Below are positions 2,411 through 21,260 of a stretch of DNA of 25,411 nt, one piece after another. The translations under genes and the position numbers were made by a program. This stretch comes from a virus, in IMG/VR virus record IMGVR_UViG_3300000230_000196, positions 1 through 25,411 of that record; one strand, written 5' to 3'. The notes below the pieces were generated by a model. It did not search any database. It saw only the letters and a list, made by a program, of their open reading frames with translations, and was not told the DNA's origin. Position 1 is the stretch's first letter. Each line of letters starts with the position of its first letter.

Positions 2411-2581
2411 ATGGAAGAAGTATATTATACACAAAAACAAATTCTAGAAATTTTTAAAATTCATCGTCAAACATTAAATAATTGGCGGCGAAAAGGTACA
2501 ATAAAATATAAAAAAATAAATAAAAGAAATTTTTTATATCTTTTTCCTGAAACTAAAATTATTAAGGAAAAAAATGAATAA
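2411..2581 (+). CDS. Small helix-turn-helix DNA-binding protein
   Basis: A 56-residue ORF. Its N-terminal half, YYTQKQILEIFKIHRQTLNN followed by WRRKG, reads as a helix-turn-helix of the MerR/excisionase (HTH_17) type: a first helix on TQKQILEIF, a turn, a recognition helix on HRQTLNNWRR, then a basic loop. The C-terminus (KKINKRNFLYLFPE) is like the wing. The stop overlaps the start of the GIY-YIG endonuclease by 8 bases (ATGAATAA), implying translational coupling. It may be a separated DNA-binding part of that endonuclease or its regulator. No orthologue was recognised. Confidence 0.6.
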   Translation: MEEVYYTQKQILEIFKIHRQTLNNWRRKGTIKYKKINKRNFLYLFPETKIIKEKNE

Positions 2582-3197
2582 GAAATTTAATTATGTTTAT
2601 ATTACAACAAATCTTATTAATAATAAACAATATATAGGTGATCATTCTACTAATAATTTAAATGATAAATATTTAGGAAGTGGAGTCGGAATAAAAAATG
2701 CTATAAAAATATATGGCAAAGAAAATTTTAAAAGAGAAATATTAGAATTTTTTTGTACTAAACAAGAATCATTTTATGCGCAAGAAAAATATATAAATGA
2801 ATATAAAACGTTATCACCTAATGGTTATAATAATAGTAAAAAAGGTGGTTATGTAAATATTAAAGAATTTTCGCAAGAAACTAGAAATAAAATAGGATTA
2901 AAAAATAAAGGAAAAATTATATCTGAAGAACATAAACAAAAAATAAAAGATTTTATGAAAACCTTTAAACATTCTGAAGAAACTAAACAAAAATTAAGAA
3001 AACCAAAAACTAAAACTGATAAATATGCTGCAAGTAAAATTGGATCAAATAATCCAATGTATAAAAAATCTTTAAAAACTTTATGGATTGAAAAATATGG
3101 GGAAGAAGAAGCTGAAATTCGTTATAAAATTTGGACAGAAAAAATAGGAATATCTAATAAAAATAGAGCTATAAAACATTATAAGAAAAAAATTTAA
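2574..3197 (+). CDS. GIY-YIG homing endonuclease with NUMOD3 motifs
   Basis: 207 residues. The N-terminal nuclease domain has YVYITTNLINNKQYIGDHS (GIY-YIG core, residues about 7-25), then KYLGSG, the KNAIKIYGKENFKREILEF helix with the catalytic-type R, an E in EKYINEY, and NGYNNSKKGG at the domain end. Two or more NUMOD3 DNA-binding repeats follow (EETRNKIGLKNKGK, EEHKQKIKDFM, EETKQKLRKPK). The rest is a basic tail with a GSNNPMYKKSLKTLW segment. It is a mobile endonuclease, probably free-standing because it lies between intact genes. It overlaps the upstream HTH gene by 8 bases. Confidence 0.85.
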   Translation: MNKKFNYVYITTNLINNKQYIGDHSTNNLNDKYLGSGVGIKNAIKIYGKENFKREILEFFCTKQESFYAQEKYINEYKTLSPNGYNNSKKGGYVNIKEFSQETRNKIGLKNKGKIISEEHKQKIKDFMKTFKHSEETKQKLRKPKTKTDKYAASKIGSNNPMYKKSLKTLWIEKYGEEEAEIRYKIWTEKIGISNKNRAIKHYKKKI

Positions 3198-3967: not shown

Positions 3968-4900
3968 ATGTATAATACAACTATGGATTATAACGAAAAA
4001 GATCAAAAAAATTTAAAAGAAATAGAAGATTTTCTTAAAGAAAATAATATTGAATATTCTACAAAATATTCAAATTTTTGTTTATGGGCTGATAATCCTA
4101 ATGGTAGACGTTCATATCAAATTGAATATATACCAACTAGATTATATCCAATAAGTTATCCTAGATTTAATATAAATGGAGTAAGCGGCGATTATTTTTA
4201 TAAATTAAGTATTGAAGCTGAAAATAATAATTCATTTAAGCTTTGGATAAAAGATTTTGAATGGGATAATCCTAGACAAAAAGAAGTATTAAAATCTTAT
4301 ATTTTACATGCTGGAGATAAAACCCCTAATAAGTTTTATGCAAGAGATTGTGAAATTCGTGTAGTACCATCAAAAGAAGCCAGAGCATTTGAAGTAGATA
4401 ATTGTTTTTATGGCAAAAGAGGTGCATCCCTAAATTTAGGTTTATATTTAAAAAAAGAAAAAAATGGTGTATCAACAGATACATTATTAATGTTATATAC
4501 ATTTGGCATGAATTTTTTTGCTAAAAAAGAAGGCATTATTGAAATTATTAGAGTTGGAACTAAAAAATTTAGTCATATTGTTGGGGGCTCATCTAAACTT
4601 TTAAAACATTTTCTATCCAATTATAAAACTATTATAATAGGTAAAAAAACTGTTAAAGTTACTCAAATCAAATTTTATTCAGATTATGATCATAATTTAG
4701 GTTCAAGTATGGATGCATTAGGGTTTGAATTTTTAGGTTATACTAAAGGGGGCTTTATGAATTATTGGGTAGAAACAAATACAGTTAAACATAGAGAACC
4801 CATGCGTCATAAATGGGTAATGGAACAAATGCGCCTTGGAAAATGTTTAGCTATACCAAATGCTGGGACTAAAAATTATATGTTAAATATTGTCGATTAA
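3968..4900 (+). CDS. Stand-alone copy of the GNAT-like domain of phage Vsr-type homing endonucleases
   Basis: 310 residues. From about residue 120 it matches the accessory domain usually found after the nuclease domain of Vsr-like phage homing endonucleases: FYARDCEIRVVPSKEARAF, then GASLNLGLYL, LMLYTFGMNFF, an IIRVGTK strand, HIVGGSSKLLKHFLSNY, FYSDYDHNLGSSMDALGFEF, and a final segment ending HREPMRHKW and NAGTKNYML. The first 120 residues look like an altered remnant of the nuclease side (FKLWIKDFEWDNP in the place of the usual IFEDEW), and I see no nuclease motif there. It ends 11 bases inside the next gene. It may be a split product of a once-complete endonuclease or a domesticated protein. 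Confidence 0.6.
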   Translation: MYNTTMDYNEKDQKNLKEIEDFLKENNIEYSTKYSNFCLWADNPNGRRSYQIEYIPTRLYPISYPRFNINGVSGDYFYKLSIEAENNNSFKLWIKDFEWDNPRQKEVLKSYILHAGDKTPNKFYARDCEIRVVPSKEARAFEVDNCFYGKRGASLNLGLYLKKEKNGVSTDTLLMLYTFGMNFFAKKEGIIEIIRVGTKKFSHIVGGSSKLLKHFLSNYKTIIIGKKTVKVTQIKFYSDYDHNLGSSMDALGFEFLGYTKGGFMNYWVETNTVKHREPMRHKWVMEQMRLGKCLAIPNAGTKNYMLNIVD

Positions 4901-6541
4901 TAGAATTATTACGGAATTTACGAAAACAACTTACATTATTTTTCAAATTAGGAATAAATTAGAAAATAAATTATATAGAGGATTTCAATCAGGAAAAAGC
5001 TTAACCTTTAAAAAATTACGTACACCAGGAAATCAAAAGTTAATAGATGATTATAGAAGATTAGGTTTTAAAAATTTCGAAAAGACTTTATTATATGAAA
5101 CCACAAATAAAGAAGATTTTTTAAAACATAAAAAGGAATTAATAAGTTTGGAATTTAAAAAAAATAATACTGCTTATACAAGCACGCTAGGTTATGTACA
5201 AGTTTTAGATTCTATCGGTAAAAAACTTAGAGTTCAACGAGATGACCCAAGATATTTAAGTGGCGAATTAATTAATTTTTCTATTGGTAAATTAGCAGTT
5301 AAAGATAAAACTGGAAATGCATTTCAAGTTAGCAAAACTGATCCTAGATTTATTAATGGAGAATTAAAAGCTATTGCTAAAGGTAAAGTTTGTGTTAAAG
5401 ATAAAGAAGGAAAAACTAAACAAGTTGATATTAATGATCCACAATATTTAAATGGTGAATTAACTTTTATTTCTACAGATAGTAAATATTCAAAAGAAGC
5501 TATAAAAAAAGTAACTGCAGCTCAACATAATAGAAGAGTTTTAGAAAGACAAAATATCTTTCCTAAATTTACGCATAATATAAAACCTAATTCTAATAAT
5601 TATTTAATTAAAAATTATTGTGAACATGGTGATTTAATTATAGAACAAAGATTTTTCAAAAAATTATATAATCATAAAAATGATGTAAAAATATATTGTA
5701 AACAATGTTTAGACACATATATTAATAATTATATACCAACGGATAAAGATTATATTAAATATAGGGATATTTGTAATATTCTATTTGTCAAACAAATTAG
5801 ATATTTATTTGATATGGTTTTTTTAAAATATTTTAATCCTAATTTATATAAATGTATTTTACAATTTAATGAAAACCACGGCGATATAACATGGATACAA
5901 AAATATATAATTTTAGATATAATATTAAAGAAAACCCCACATGTTTACAAAAAGATTGTATCGAATATACTAGATATTCAACAAGTAATAAGAGATATAA
6001 TTTATATTGTGATAAACATATATTATATCATTTTACATCTGTTGGAGAAAATCAAGTTTATGAATATATAAAATCTATATTACCTAAAAATATAGAAGTT
6101 ATATTACGTGATAAAACACAAATTAAACAAGAATTAGATATTTATATTTCATCTTTAAATTTAGCTTTTGAATATAATGGTTTATATTGGCATAGTGAAG
6201 AAAATTTATCCAAATTTTATCATAGGGATAAACTAAAATTAGCAAATGATAAAAATATAGATTTAATATTTATATGGGAAGATGATTGGATCTTTAATAA
6301 AGAAATAGTTCAAATCATGATTGAAAATAAAATACAATCCTGTATAAATAAAACAAATGTAATAAAATTTAATTTAATAGAAACCAATTTAGAATATTGG
6401 TGGGTTAAAAATAATAAACGATATAATATATTTGATAATATAATACAAGATTTATTAATAAAAAATTATAATAAATTAGAAGATGATATTATGAAAGAAC
6501 ATGGTTTTTTTAAAATTTGGGGTACGTCTAAATTAAATTAG
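4890..6541 (+). pseudogene. GIY-YIG/Vsr-type homing endonuclease split by a -1 frameshift and lacking its middle domain
   Basis: Two frames make one protein. Frame A, from TTG 4890 to about 5905, has a degenerate GIY-YIG-like start (TYIIFQIRNKLENKLYRGFQ), three repeats of G-K-(L/V)-x-VKDK-x-G-x(4)-V-x(3)-DPR(Y/F)-x-x-GEL, and a segment ending NPNLYKCILQFNENHGDITW. Frame B, from about 5906 to 6541, continues with YNFRYNIKENPTCLQKDC, a CDKH zinc-like motif, and a Vsr-like nuclease core (ELDIYIS, LAFEYNGLYWHSE, FIWEDDW). The joint falls in CAAAAATATATAAT near 5898-5911; one extra base there would restore a single frame. The end (YWWVKNNKRYN ... KIWGTSKLN) is the usual C-terminus, but the GNAT-like domain normally before it is missing, and a copy lies in the preceding gene. 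Confidence 0.7.
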
Positions 6542-6570: not shown

Positions 6571-8361
6571 ATGGCAGGATTTACAATGAAAGCACTAGAC
6601 AGCACACGAGTTGGTTGGATTAATGCTATTCAAAAAAATATCAGACAATTCTCATTAATTGGAATGAAATGGGAAGATAAATTAATCAAACAATCTAAAT
6701 CTATTGGTGTTGCTGAAGCACAATTAGATTCAATGTATGGTTTATATCATCAAGGTAATTATGTTGGTACTGATTATGGTCAAAAAGAATTTATAGCTTT
6801 TTTTGATAAGGAGTATCCCACTCGCCGTGAATTTCTTCGCAAATTTGCGATGAATGGTGAAATAGAACATGTTATAGAAGTTATATGTGATGAAACTATT
6901 ATATATGATGATAACAATTATTTTGCATATCCGGCTACTAGAAATCTTAAAGCCCTAATTAAAGCAGATAAAGCTAAAGAAATTATAGATAATTTAAATG
7001 AATCCTTTAAACGTGTTTATTTTTCATTTGGGTTTAACCAAGGACATGATGCCTGGCATTATTTAAAAAAATTTCTTATTGATGGTTTCTTAGCATTTGA
7101 AATTATTTATGACGGTGAAGATGGTGAAGATGCTAAAAATATAATTGGTTTTAAAGAATTAGACCCTATTTCATTAGAACCTGAACTCCGAATTAATGAC
7201 GATGATGGACTTGAATATAGGGTTTGGACACAATATAAAGGTGATTTGCAGAAGCAACGTGAATTATTAGATGCTAATTTAATATACATATCATGGGCTA
7301 GAGGTAATTTTATTTCTAGATTATCATATGTAGAAAGATTAGTTAGATCCTTTAACATGTTAAGAACTTTAGAAAATTCCAGGATTATTTGGAATGTTTG
7401 GAATGCACAATTACGTATGAAAATATTAGTTCCAATAGGTTCACAATCAGAAGCTAAAGCTAGAACTAGATTATCAGAACTTCGTGGCATGTATAAAGAA
7501 GAATTAAATATAAATGACCAATCGGGTGAAGTAACTTATAATGGTTCGCCACAATTTAATTTTGCTAAAACATTTATTATACCAACTAAAGATGGTGCAC
7601 AAACTGAAATTAGTGGAATTGATGTGCAAGGTTATAATTTATCTGAAACAGATTCATTAAAATATTTTTGGTTAAGGTATATAGTGGAAACAAAAGTTCC
7701 TCAATCTAGGTTTTCTAATCAATTTTCTAGTGAGGGTAGTTCAAGTAATTGGGGAGCTGGTTCAGAATCTGCATCTAGAGAAGAAATTAGATTTTCATAT
7801 TTTTTAAATAGAGTACGATCAATTTTTCAAGAAATTTTATTAAAACCAGTTTGGTATCAATTTATTTTAAAATACCCTGAATTTAATAAAGATAAAGCTC
7901 TTAAAGCTGCTATTGGATTAAAATTTCAGGAAGAAAATTTATTTAAAATATTAAAAGAACGTGAAATAGCAGAAAAAGGTGCAACAACAATAACAAGTTT
8001 ATTAGGTATTAATGAAACTAGTATTAATCCTGATGGTACACCTTTAGAAAAGAAATTCTTTGATCCTAAATTTCTTGTAGATAAATATATGGATTTAACA
8101 GAATCCGATATAAAACTTAATGAGAAATACAAAAAAGAAAGAGATGAACAAATTAAACGTTTAGCTAAAGTATATGCACAAATAAAAGCACAGGCTGAAG
8201 GTGGAGCAGAAGGTGGAGACACTGGTAGCTTTGGTGGAGGAGGTGGAGGTGATTTAGGTGGAGGTGATTTAGGTGGAGGTGATTTAGGTGGAGGTGATTT
8301 AGGTGGAGATGATTTAGGTGGAGATGATTTAGGTGGAGATGAAGAAACTGCTGAAATTTAA
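6571..8361 (+). CDS. gp20: Portal vertex protein (T4 gp20-like)
   Basis: 596 residues (T4 gp20 has 524). Recognised by the gp20 block order: YPTRREFLRKFAMNGEIEHV followed by CDETIIYD, the clip region GFNQGHDAWHYLKKFLIDGFLAFEIIYD, GFKELDP, WARGNFISRLSYVERLVRSFN with MLRTLENSRIIWNVWNAQLR, an elongated stem helix, and KYFWLRYIVETKVPQSRF. The portal forms the dodecameric ring through which DNA is packaged and to which the neck attaches. Odd feature: the last 55 residues form a Gly/Asp-rich low-complexity tail made by 15-base tandem repeats (GGGDL and GGDDL units) that T4 gp20 does not have. A GATATATAAA box lies 20 bases upstream of the start. Confidence 0.93.
   Translation: MAGFTMKALDSTRVGWINAIQKNIRQFSLIGMKWEDKLIKQSKSIGVAEAQLDSMYGLYHQGNYVGTDYGQKEFIAFFDKEYPTRREFLRKFAMNGEIEHVIEVICDETIIYDDNNYFAYPATRNLKALIKADKAKEIIDNLNESFKRVYFSFGFNQGHDAWHYLKKFLIDGFLAFEIIYDGEDGEDAKNIIGFKELDPISLEPELRINDDDGLEYRVWTQYKGDLQKQRELLDANLIYISWARGNFISRLSYVERLVRSFNMLRTLENSRIIWNVWNAQLRMKILVPIGSQSEAKARTRLSELRGMYKEELNINDQSGEVTYNGSPQFNFAKTFIIPTKDGAQTEISGIDVQGYNLSETDSLKYFWLRYIVETKVPQSRFSNQFSSEGSSSNWGAGSESASREEIRFSYFLNRVRSIFQEILLKPVWYQFILKYPEFNKDKALKAAIGLKFQEENLFKILKEREIAEKGATTITSLLGINETSINPDGTPLEKKFFDPKFLVDKYMDLTESDIKLNEKYKKERDEQIKRLAKVYAQIKAQAEGGAEGGDTGSFGGGGGGDLGGGDLGGGDLGGGDLGGDDLGGDDLGGDEETAEI
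8242..8346 (+). repeat. 15-bp tandem repeat coding the portal Gly-Asp tail
   Basis: Seven head-to-tail units: four exact GGTGGAGGTGATTTA units (GGGDL), then two GGTGGAGATGATTTA units (GGDDL) and a divergent last one ending in GAAGAA. All units are in frame, so length changes do not disrupt the protein. Confidence 0.95.
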
Positions 8362-8377
8362 TAAAATAAATTTTTAA

Positions 8378-8776
8378 ATGAAATTAATTAAAGAATCTTT
8401 AAATGAATTTGAAAGAGGTCTAGAACCCAAAGTAGCTTTAGGTATAGGTAGATATGCATGGAAAACACTTAGACCTTATACAATTTTAAAGTCTTTAAAA
8501 ACTGTTCATATAAATATGAATGGTTTTTTTAGAAATAGTCCTTCATATTTACATATTTGGCCTGGAATGTATGTTTTATTATCGGATATTGCGCACGAAA
8601 CAAATAATTATATTTTATGTAAATTTAATCAGTTTTGGGACTTAGAAAAGGCAATAAATGCTACAGAGGAAAATAATCGTATAAGCAAATTAATTTATAA
8701 TCATATGCAAGGTTCAATTCTACAATTTAAAAATAGATTTGAAATTATACGACTAGAATATTTAGCAAAGATTTAA
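8378..8776 (+). CDS. Small protein with capsid-targeting-like N-terminus
   Basis: 132 residues of unknown function directly after the portal gene, where T4 carries small prohead core genes (67, 68). The N-terminus MKLIKESLNEFE is shared in form with two other genes in this window (19573, 21336) and resembles T4 internal-protein capsid-targeting peptides (MKTYQEFIAEA), which end at a prohead-protease (I/L)xE site; here LIKE and LNE would fit. The rest is a basic, aromatic-rich globular stretch (HINMNGFFRNSPSYLHIWPGM). No membrane segment or known domain is seen. The stop codon lies in a duplicated 11-base unit. Confidence 0.65.
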   Translation: MKLIKESLNEFERGLEPKVALGIGRYAWKTLRPYTILKSLKTVHINMNGFFRNSPSYLHIWPGMYVLLSDIAHETNNYILCKFNQFWDLEKAINATEENNRISKLIYNHMQGSILQFKNRFEIIRLEYLAKI

Positions 8777-8839: not shown

Positions 8840-9073
8840 GTGTTGAATAAACTAGTTATTTGAAGACGCTAAGCCAGACCTGGGATCATACCCAGCAGCT
8901 CCACTAATTATAAAAAGGTATATGGGGCTGAGTTGTATTGATGGGTAGAAAGATTCTTATAATGAAATCCTAAATAAGCGTTAAACGACGCAGAAACACG
9001 TACATTTGCAATGGCAGCTTGAGTTTGTCTTTTGTGACGAGATTAGTGCCCAGCGAAAGTGGGCACATTTTTT
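8840..9073 (+). ncRNA. ssrA: Circularly permuted (two-piece) tmRNA
   Basis: Seen in order: a T-arm (stem CTGGG 8880-8884, loop ATCATA, stem CCCAG 8891-8895), the 3' acceptor strand CAGCTCC 8896-8902 followed by ACTA, a 21-base spacer, then the 5' acceptor strand GGGGCTG 8924-8930 followed by a D-loop-like AGTTGTATTGATGGG. The acceptor strands pair over 7 bp with one G-U. Downstream a tag frame, most likely from GCG at 8978, reads ALNDAETRTFAMAA then TGA at 9020. A 5-bp hairpin (TTGTC/GACGA) and a terminator close the gene. No T-arm or acceptor 3' strand occurs after the tag, so the halves are swapped relative to a one-piece tmRNA. Mature RNA would be two pieces after removal of the spacer, as known for alphaproteobacterial and some cyanobacterial tmRNAs. 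The 5' boundary and helix P2 were not resolved. Confidence 0.82.
9046..9073 (+). terminator. Rho-independent terminator of the tmRNA
   Basis: Perfect 7-bp stem GTGCCCA (9046-9052) / TGGGCAC (9060-9066), loop GCGAAAG, followed by ATTTTTT. Unusually GC-rich for this window. Confidence 0.92.
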
Positions 9074-9075
9074 CA

Positions 9076-11422: not shown

Positions 11423-12049
11423 ATGGCTAAAAACAATTCAATTCAATCAATTGCATTAGATTTCATAGAAAAAAGAGATGATGAAACTTTTAGAAAAGTA
11501 ATAAGTCGTTTGAGGCCGGGGTTAATGTCGCACACATACAAATTTGTCCATAATTTTGATTTATGTAGTGAAATTGTAGAAAAAACTTTTATAGCAGTTT
11601 GGGAAAAAATTGATCAATATAAAACTGAATATAATTTTTCTACATGGGTATATGCTATAGCTAAAAATGAATGTTTAGGACAATTAAGACTTAACAAGAA
11701 ATTTTTATCACATAATAAATTAACTGAAGCCAATTCTTCTATTTTAAGAAGTTACAATCCTGTTGTTAATTTAGATATTGAGGTGTATGGGCCAAGTGGC
11801 GAAGAAATTACTTATCATTTACATGACAAAGTTGTAGATGAATTTAATTCATTAAAGGAACCTTATAGAACAGTTATAATTGAACGTGAGATTAATCAAA
11901 AATCTTTACAAGATATTGCTGATAATCTTAATTGGAATTTATCTACTGTTAAAACTAGATTAAAAAAAGCTAGAACAGATGTAGCCAATATAATTAAAGA
12001 AAAACACAGTAATTTATTAGAATTATATTATAATGAAAAAAATAGCTAA
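11423..12049 (+). CDS. ECF-type sigma-70 family RNA polymerase sigma factor
   Basis: 208 residues. Region 2 spans about residues 25-95: LMSHTYKFVHNFDLCSEIVEKTFIAVWEKIDQYK, then FSTWVYAIAKNECLGQLR, the usual region 2.3/2.4 pattern (F-x-TW-x-Y-x-IA-xN). Region 4 spans about 138-195: FNSLKEPYRTVIIEREINQKSLQDIA, then a helix-turn-helix DNLNWNLSTVKTRLKKARTDV. There is no region 1 or 3, as in ECF factors. Together with the gp55-like protein this gives the phage two sigma-type proteins. It overlaps the next gene by 17 bases. It could serve an early or middle promoter class, possibly the TTAACAT-N27-TTGTATATT type, an inference. Confidence 0.88.
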   Translation: MAKNNSIQSIALDFIEKRDDETFRKVISRLRPGLMSHTYKFVHNFDLCSEIVEKTFIAVWEKIDQYKTEYNFSTWVYAIAKNECLGQLRLNKKFLSHNKLTEANSSILRSYNPVVNLDIEVYGPSGEEITYHLHDKVVDEFNSLKEPYRTVIIEREINQKSLQDIADNLNWNLSTVKTRLKKARTDVANIIKEKHSNLLELYYNEKNS

Positions 12050-20779: not shown

Positions 20780-20864
20780 GGAAATCTGACAGAAAGGTAA
20801 TGTACAGGTTTGGAAAACCTGAGTCAGGGTTAAACCTGAGCGAGATCGGTACTCGCGATTTCCA
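20780..20864 (+). tRNA. tRNA-Ser(GGA)
   Basis: Acceptor GGAAATC / GATTTCC, anticodon arm CAGGT-TTGGAAA-ACCTG (anticodon GGA), variable arm CAGG/CCTG, T-arm GCGAG-ATCGGTA-CTCGC. The D-stem is weak, T-loop atypical and the base after the acceptor is A rather than the usual G. No CCA encoded. Confidence 0.85.
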
Positions 20865-20873
20865 CAAATTTTT

Positions 20874-20946
20874 CGGTATATCTTCTAATTGGTTAGGAAG
20901 CGCGTCTTATAAGCCCGTAATCTAGGTTCGAAGCCTAGTATACCGA
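20874..20946 (+). tRNA. tRNA-Ile(UAU)
   Basis: Acceptor CGGTATA / TATACCG, D-arm TTCT/GGAA, anticodon loop CTTATAA (anticodon TAT), T-arm CTAGG-TTCGAAG-CCTAG, discriminator A. The anticodon stem has one C-C mismatch. Would read AUA, which most bacteria read with a lysidine-modified CAU tRNA. Confidence 0.82.
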
Positions 20947-20959
20947 CAAAATAATACTT

Positions 20960-21032
20960 CGGAATATCGTCTAGTTGGTTAGGACGCATCTCTGATAAGG
21001 ATGTAACGTTGGTTCAAGTCCATCTATTCCGA
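20960..21032 (+). tRNA. tRNA-Ile(GAU)
   Basis: Acceptor CGGAATA / TATTCCG, D-arm GTC/GAC, anticodon arm CATCT-CTGATAA-GGATG (anticodon GAT), T-arm GTTGG-TTCAAGT-CCATC with one mismatch, discriminator A. It resembles the preceding gene in acceptor and D-arm, so the two probably arose by duplication. Confidence 0.9.
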
Positions 21033-21043
21033 CATTTTAAAAT

Positions 21044-21132
21044 GGAAAATAAAGCACTAAGGTTGGTGTCCTTGTCTGCTAAACAAAGGGTTCGTTTAAA
21101 AAATGAATAGATTTCGATTATCTTATTTTCCG
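21044..21132 (+). tRNA. tRNA-Ser(GCU)
   Basis: Acceptor GGAAAAT / ATTTTCC, anticodon loop CTGCTAA (anticodon GCT) on a stem with one C-A mismatch, long variable arm TTCGTT/AATGAA, T-loop TTCGATT, discriminator G. With the UGA and GGA isoacceptors it completes the six serine codons. Confidence 0.82.
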
Positions 21133-21173
21133 CATAAAAATATTAGTGTGAATATAATTTCACATTTTCCGCT

Positions 21174-21257
21174 GTGTCTGTAGCCGGTAAATGGTATCCG
21201 AGCAGATTGTGGCTCTGCGCAGAAATGCACATGCGGGTTCGAATCCCGTCAGATACC
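21174..21257 (+). tRNA. tRNA-His(GUG), atypical with extended variable arm
   Basis: Acceptor GTGTCTG / CAGATAC with one G-T pair, anticodon arm GCAGA-TTGTGGC-TCTGC (anticodon GTG), T-arm GCGGG-TTCGAAT-CCCGT, C at position 73 as in histidine tRNAs. Odd: a 14-base variable region containing GCA/TGC pairing and a long D-region give 84 bases instead of about 76, and the base at -1 is T, not the G expected for tRNA-His. Confidence 0.72.
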
Positions 21258-21260
21258 CAA

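Follow-up and report, generated by a model that had tools for sequence, protein, structure and literature searches.

A circularly permuted tmRNA gene in a putative Bacteroidota phage lineage related to the Lak megaphages

A large T4-like phage that probably belongs to the sister clade of the Lak megaphages carries a circularly permuted tmRNA gene, and the main point of our analysis, which lay beyond the view of the preliminary description of this DNA, is that the sister phages retain a one-piece gene. Our joint reading, to which we give a probability of about 0.8, is that of a permuted tmRNA that is inferred to be processed into a two-piece rescue RNA and that derives from a Bacteroidota-type one-piece tmRNA, outside the alphaproteobacterial, betaproteobacterial and cyanobacterial lineages. 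The observed features on which this is built are the swapped halves, the pairing of the acceptor stem, P2 and P2b, conserved helices, a G3-U70 pair, a tag frame and a terminator-like hairpin. Permuted tmRNAs have been ascribed to three main bacterial clades, the models of which were merged to build the Rfam model RF04321 (PMC11915505), and their occurrence in phages as such is not new (PMC9004378). What appears new is a Bacteroidota-phage lineage of permuted tmRNA, which probably represents a fourth origin; no paper joining permuted tmRNA and Bacteroidetes was found in the literature searched, and some of the sequences may sit unremarked in databases, including those of PMC11915505. With both forms present in sister phage clades near one structural gene, the manner in which the halves of a tmRNA flip while function is kept becomes comparable and testable. 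The finding also raises the question of whether a two-piece RNA can be processed and used by hosts that have a one-piece tmRNA, and it shows that permuted tmRNA is spread through Bacteroidota phages, crAss-like gut phages included.

Layout of the gene in the window

Positions 8842-9074 on the plus strand of the window (the whole stretch of DNA analysed, 25,411 nucleotides) form, to judge from sequence alone, a circularly permuted tmRNA gene, its function in processing and tagging not having been shown. RF04321, the Rfam permuted tmRNA model (curated cut-off 47 bits), matches 8855-9022 on the same strand with 51.1 bits (E 1.7e-7 for the window). The preliminary description had claimed that the halves of the gene are swapped and had proposed a covariance-model search as a check; the claim was upheld both by this score above the cut-off and by the order of the parts, the T-arm and 3' acceptor strand (8880-8903) preceding the 5' acceptor strand (8924-8930). 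ARAGORN, run on the window, did not call the tmRNA copy there. A T-arm followed by CCA and a 7-bp partner starting GGGG is found once in the window against 3 in 200 first-order shuffled windows. The bare layout is by itself improbable by chance yet not decisive, and it is the model score and the relatives that decide.

All parts of the gene described here are on the plus strand. The acceptor piece opens, on its 5' side, with a small hairpin, H1 (8842-8852, GTT/AAC), which has 3 bp here, is present with compensatory changes in most clade members and is the weakest helix of the clade alignment (63% of cells paired). The 5' strand of P2b (8855-8859, GTTAT) pairs with 8959-8963 across both pieces, as derived from RNAalifold and pair counts, with 90.7% of cells paired in the clade alignment and double changes at four of the five pairs. 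P2, which also joins both pieces, is formed by CTAAGCC of the acceptor piece (8869-8875) and GGGTAG of the mRNA-like piece (8943-8948); it has one mismatch and a bulge in the window copy, and across the clade alignment 78% of its cells are paired, with double changes at all seven pairs. The T-arm (8880-8895, CTGGG/CCCAG with the loop ATCATA) is read directly and is 100% paired in 15 sequences. Its loop in the window copy (8885-8890) has 6 nt and not the canonical 7 nt, whereas most relatives have a canonical TTCRANY-like T-loop; the loop varies inside the clade, and we do not treat the 6-nt form as defining enough to exclude the window copy from the permuted tmRNAs. A loop of this size in an otherwise intact tRNA-like domain may reflect divergence, decay or a one-base assembly error.

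The acceptor piece closes with the 3' acceptor strand CAGCTCC (8896-8902) and the discriminator A (8903), with CCA not encoded (CTA comes next), and the mRNA-like piece starts with the 5' acceptor strand GGGGCTG (8924-8930), identified by direct reading and by RF04321, before which an RNase P site is expected. The two strands had been described as pairing over 7 bp, and all 7/7 pairs form, including G3-U70, a mark of alanine identity; the separation given as 21 bases is 20 nt (8904-8923) and becomes 21 only if A73 is counted. Removal of this intervening sequence is expected, not shown. A hairpin GATT/AATC (8952-8969), found by reading the sequence, provides one stem in the region of a putative pseudoknot 1, where relatives have similar stems of other bases. 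The ending of the tag frame in AMAA-stop stands (FAMAA-TGA), but the proposed start at an upstream GCG, giving 14 amino acids, probably does not: the tag is more likely the 11-residue DAETRTFAMAA (8987-9022, with its TGA stop), with GAC 8987 as the probable resume codon, because TAAAC-GAC-GCA of the window aligns with TAAAC-GGC-GAA of relatives. The P5 hairpin (9013-9029, GGCA/TGTC here) spans the tag stop codon and is 98% paired in the clade. As had been remarked, no acceptor strand lies 3' of the tag; instead there is an intrinsic-terminator-like hairpin (9046-9066, stem GTGCCCA/TGGGCAC, loop GCGAAAG) with a T-run to 9074, the stem of which covaries across the clade and which is the probable end of the precursor. 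With its 6-nt T-loop, P2 mismatch and 3-bp H1, the window copy is among the most deviant of its clade.

Permuted and one-piece genes among related phages

Relatives were drawn from two IMG/VR portal searches, which yielded contigs of 61-81% identity besides many of 40-46%. A permuted tmRNA (E <= 1e-3) was found in 15 of the 17 examined contigs of 61-77% portal identity, 13 of them over the RF04321 cut-off, and with the window included 16 of 18 portal-clade contigs carry one; the two contigs without it are fragments of 4.7 and 7.3 kb. Where measured, the gene lies 0.2 to ~4 kb downstream of the portal match. ARAGORN called a permuted tmRNA in ten relatives of the window, and every tmRNA that it called in clade contigs is permuted; their tags include GETVNEMRMAA, GTYNEMKMAA, GANKQTFAMAA, GEKQTQFAMAA and GEQFNEYRIAA. 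A tag frame with a stop is retained in all clade copies read. RF00023, the standard tmRNA model, gave no match above its cut-off in the window or the permuted clade, and BLASTN of the window gene against 50,697 phage records returned no full-length relative. One weak permuted match outside the clade (G048, 324516-324611) proved to be a tRNA-Ala that belongs to a tRNA array.

Fifteen clade genes were aligned with the intervening sequence removed (the rows labelled L190 and L191 come from loci L267 and L268). From this alignment RNAalifold recovered the T-arm, the acceptor stem, P2, P2b, P5 and the terminator stem, while H1 was put into the structure by hand. Paired cells amount to 89.5%, compared with 71.3% after shuffling (0/500) and 40-52% for slid versions of the structure. 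Both sides have changed at 28/37 pairs, with 99 double-changed cells against 35 in shuffled alignments (0/500 as high), and pairing reaches 100% in both the acceptor stem and the T-arm, G3-U70 being invariant in 15/15 sequences. Because part of the structure was inferred from these aligned genes themselves, the comparison with the slid versions is biased towards it; that bias does not affect the double changes of the acceptor stem, which lie across the permuted junction. As far as comparison of sequences can establish it, the clade-wide compensatory changes show selection on the entire RNA.

The intervening sequence ranges from 15 to 186 nt across the clade, and an Rfam search of these sequences for riboswitches and ribozymes found none. 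A recurring element resembling an H-type pseudoknot (GGCTTTGATGATTGAGCC..AATCAATCAT and variants) is present in the intervening sequences of L052, L057, L062 and L268, and those of L047 and L060 have a common structured insert that is unlike it; neither has an Rfam match.

Beyond the clade, full one-piece tmRNAs over the RF00023 cut-off are found in Lak-A2, Lak-B4, Lak-C1, LR756500 and LR756504, and likewise in three IMG/VR relatives (G038, G047, G048). In the three Lak genomes the match coordinates place the one-piece gene immediately upstream of the portal gene. RF04321 also gave low-scoring matches in Lak and further huge phages; these were discarded, as they reach 12-18 bits, far under the cut-off, and in three records overlap the standard tmRNA. 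In portal trees (58 rows; 29 rows with bootstrap) Lak and the permuted clade group together with full support (100/100), the split between the two has moderate support (81/66), other phages bearing the standard gene fall outside, and one change separates both forms. Although Lak sits on a long branch of the portal tree, the one-piece form is likely the ancestral state in the megaphage family, because phages outside Lak also have the standard gene. Since both the Lak sister clade and remoter relatives carry one-piece tmRNA, the permuted form appears to have been gained once inside the family, on the clade stem of the portal tree, and it is undecided whether this occurred by permutation in place or by arrival from another Bacteroidota phage. 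The clade shares with the one-piece tmRNAs of Lak and huge phages its phage family (portal tree), a portal-adjacent position (in Lak) and similar tag ends (FRMAA, EMRMAA), and permuted L060 has the same 21 nt at its tag end (GAAATGAGAATGGCAGCTTAA) as standard LR756500; the one-piece genes differ in their standard half order and in retaining the PK2-PK4 region.

Known permuted lineages and the origin of the clade

The half order, the G3-U70 acceptor stem, the T-arm, the inter-piece P2 and the internal tag frame are all shared with the permuted tmRNAs of RF04321. Unlike known permuted tmRNAs, the clade genes have little past P5 but a terminator hairpin, and they occur in phages and not in the bacterial genomes scanned. 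They also remain below the cut-offs of the three subtype models and differ from these lineages in a Bacteroidota-type signature and tags: the best clade scores are 39.2 of 50 bits for alpha (RF01849), 49.6 of 84 for beta (RF01850) and 48.0 of 70 for cyano (RF01851), and the window reaches a partial 25.8 bits with RF01849, whereas two other viral genes from the scans do reach subtype cut-offs (cyano 104, alpha 88.6). The signature base lies past the acceptor, in a stretch that is (U/A)UCGA in bacterial permuted genes; it is C in 28/28 scored permuted genes of Pseudomonadota and in 72/75 other viral ones, as opposed to U in 14/14 clade genes scored; the three viral exceptions are a clade member again (L310), a cyano-type gene (L312) and an unassigned one (L141). 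The same U is present in a standard Bacteroides-type tmRNA, L360, which lies on a prophage contig and reads GGGGTTGACTGGATTTGACAGC there; its tag, GETNYALAA, opens with GGC-GAA like many clade tags, many of which start GE.

The one-piece gene had been named as the form used by Bacteroidota, in agreement with the standard tmRNA of seven Bacteroidota-type (prophage-borne) copies, and by mean alignment score the 5' domain is nearest to these seven in 14 of 16 clade members. By best single score many clade members match one of ~120 alpha, beta and cyano permuted sequences as well as they match one of the 7 Bacteroidota ones; such best-hit group scores are uninformative owing to the unequal group sizes. 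Only one clade tag, that of L054 (ANNQEMLMAA), has an alpha/cyano-like start, all others lacking the AND/ANN start of known permuted lineages. The comparison points to a putative origin outside the alpha, beta and cyano lineages.

Related permuted genes are present in at least two further phage lineages, one Flavobacterium-phage-like and one crAss-like. In relatives of Flavobacterium phage immuto (L311, L313, L107, L174) the permuted genes have the U signature and the tag GEQVEMAMAA, while immuto itself lacks a permuted tmRNA. The crAss-like cr7_1 and cr124_1 (Burzaovirus), for which GenBank lists an SsrA RNA, likewise have a permuted tmRNA with the U signature; they differ from the clade in their acceptor (GGGCGTG/CACGTCC), in their tag (DNVNNIVDYTNVA) and in belonging to another phage order. 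This non-GGGG acceptor and tags ending NVA were observed at ~546-902 of NC_055895 and NC_055899 (L358/L359). Among the loci from one pattern scan, 36 were called as permuted by ARAGORN and have the acceptor strand upstream, and 40 are standard. In other viral contigs with the U signature (L362, L363, L370, L385 and others) the tmRNA is of the standard form and its tag unusually long (ANAQIEANMNKVFSLLREEVAVAA and variants). An immuto-like phage has a DUF805b RNA motif (L354, 831-863; 36.0 bits, cut-off 35.6) close to its permuted tmRNA. The phage lineage of L424 could not be told from its DNA polymerase.

A fourth, phage-born origin would have a portal-linked one-piece gene opened and re-joined in place, with the product working in hosts that have one-piece tmRNA and with the same form found in several unrelated Bacteroidota phage lineages; we put this forward tentatively, at somewhat short of even odds. 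Because the permuted form extends past this clade, a transfer from one phage to another must be weighed seriously against in-place permutation. The clade ancestor may have swapped its one-piece tmRNA for that of another Bacteroidota phage (e.g., Flavobacterium-phage-like or crAss-like), in which it had been permuted earlier, a course of events that is possible, though less likely than not. The U-signature permuted genes of immuto relatives, cr7_1, cr124_1 and 36 further loci are consistent with such a swap, as is the likeness of the tag ends of clade members L056 and L190 (EMAMAA) to the immuto-like GEQVEMAMAA. However, the portal-near locus in the clade and the portal-upstream one in Lak are as expected if one locus changed form, the tag end common to L060 and standard LR756500 also speaks against replacement, and the clade terminator comes right past P5 where the immuto-like group has a longer, apparently structured tail.

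Acquisition of the gene from an alphaproteobacterial, betaproteobacterial or cyanobacterial permuted lineage, as in marine phages such as Melnitz, is by comparison largely refuted and must be thought very improbable. Two-piece tmRNAs made up 53 of the 133 unique phage tmRNAs of one survey, 50 of these 53 being marine or aquatic, and marine phages (OM43 phage Melnitz, pelagiphages, cyanophages) commonly have permuted genes of alpha and cyano type; they resemble the clade in being T4-like phages with a phage-encoded permuted tmRNA (PMC9004378). The partial scores against the alpha, beta and cyano models and the alpha-like T-loops of L050 (GGCAGAA) and L055 (AGGCATA) would fit such a source. Marine-phage genes, however, group with alpha- and cyanobacterial ones (tags ANDN... 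and ANN... in the viral loci here), whereas the clade has the U signature, mostly GE or similar tag starts and one-piece sister phages; it reaches no curated cut-off of the three subtype models, has an AND/ANN tag start only in L054, and its layout with U, when scanned for in 84,980 bacterial and archaeal species, yielded only one chance match (L309), which sits in an apparent protein gene and is no tmRNA. A different concern is that the window copy does not tag, either because it is decaying or because it serves as a decoy, binding SmpB and blocking the tmRNA of the host, a role proposed for the RNA of mycobacteriophage DS6A, which consists of a tRNA-like domain only (PMC4131195). Decay could indeed account for the 6-nt T-loop, the weak, mismatched P2, the short H1, the low model score and the ARAGORN miss, yet the acceptor stem, G3-U70, the tag frame with its stop and the terminator are all intact, compensatory changes run through the clade and every copy read has a tag frame and stop, and we consider a non-tagging copy unlikely.

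Proposed function and carrier phage

For a functional permuted tmRNA we envisage that a single precursor would be transcribed and then cut, with RNase P cleaving before G8924, and with 3' processing and CCA addition giving an acceptor piece that ends at A8903. Both pieces would remain paired, and alanyl-tRNA synthetase would charge the RNA with alanine. Together with a phage- or host-encoded SmpB, it could then rescue stalled ribosomes and add the DAETRTFAMAA tag. Processing, CCA addition, charging, SmpB binding, rescue and tagging are all inferred from known two-piece tmRNAs, with no RNA data at hand. Possible benefits include the freeing of ribosomes in late infection, recycling, or competition with host tmRNA, between which the sequence does not decide. 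Huge phages are known to encode both tmRNA and SmpB (PMC7162821), and SmpB is encoded by related megaphages (Lak, LR756501/502/504, LR745206, G020, G047, G048); no SmpB gene was found in the clade contigs, all of which are fragments (the largest 260 kb).

The carrier had been described as a T4-like Bacteroidota phage, of which the T4-like part is well supported and the host is only inferred. The IMG/VR contig of 28,475 bases has T4-type head genes (portal, DNA end protector, head closure), and its portal protein gene (6571-8361, plus strand), the neighbour of the tmRNA in the clade, is of the T4 gp20 type (PHROG 213, E 3e-49). A 132-aa ORF without a family match (8378-8776, plus strand) lies between portal and tmRNA. 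The nearest named relatives are the Lak megaphages (listed host Prevotella), to whose portals that of the window is 40-41% identical, compared with 39% for LR756500, a 462-kb uncultured phage; remoter portal matches include Tenacibaculum and Chryseobacterium phages. The carrier is probably a large T4-like phage of the sister clade of the Lak megaphages, with infection of Bacteroidota inferred and the host not shown.

Several other genes of the window may be mentioned. A Fib_succ_major domain protein (615-1310; Pfam PF09603, E 6e-30) fits a Bacteroidota-phage setting, and a "major paralogous domain" protein is annotated in Microcystis phage Mel-JY01 (L348). GIY-YIG-like (just under the Pfam cut-off) and HNH/homing-endonuclease-like genes (2574-3197, 3968-4900, 5891-6541) are located in the head region upstream of the portal gene, and an RNA polymerase sigma-factor-like gene (11423-12049; PHROG 1740, E 3e-18) lies near the head genes. 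Five tRNA genes (Ser-GGA, Ile-TAT, Ile-GAT, Ser-GCT, His-GTG) are clustered at 20780-21258. The T4-late-promoter-like TATAAATA stands immediately 5' of the acceptor piece of both L047 and L048, a hint that this RNA has a late transcript of its own; in the window it occurs at eight places, with GTAAAATA at the position upstream of the tmRNA.
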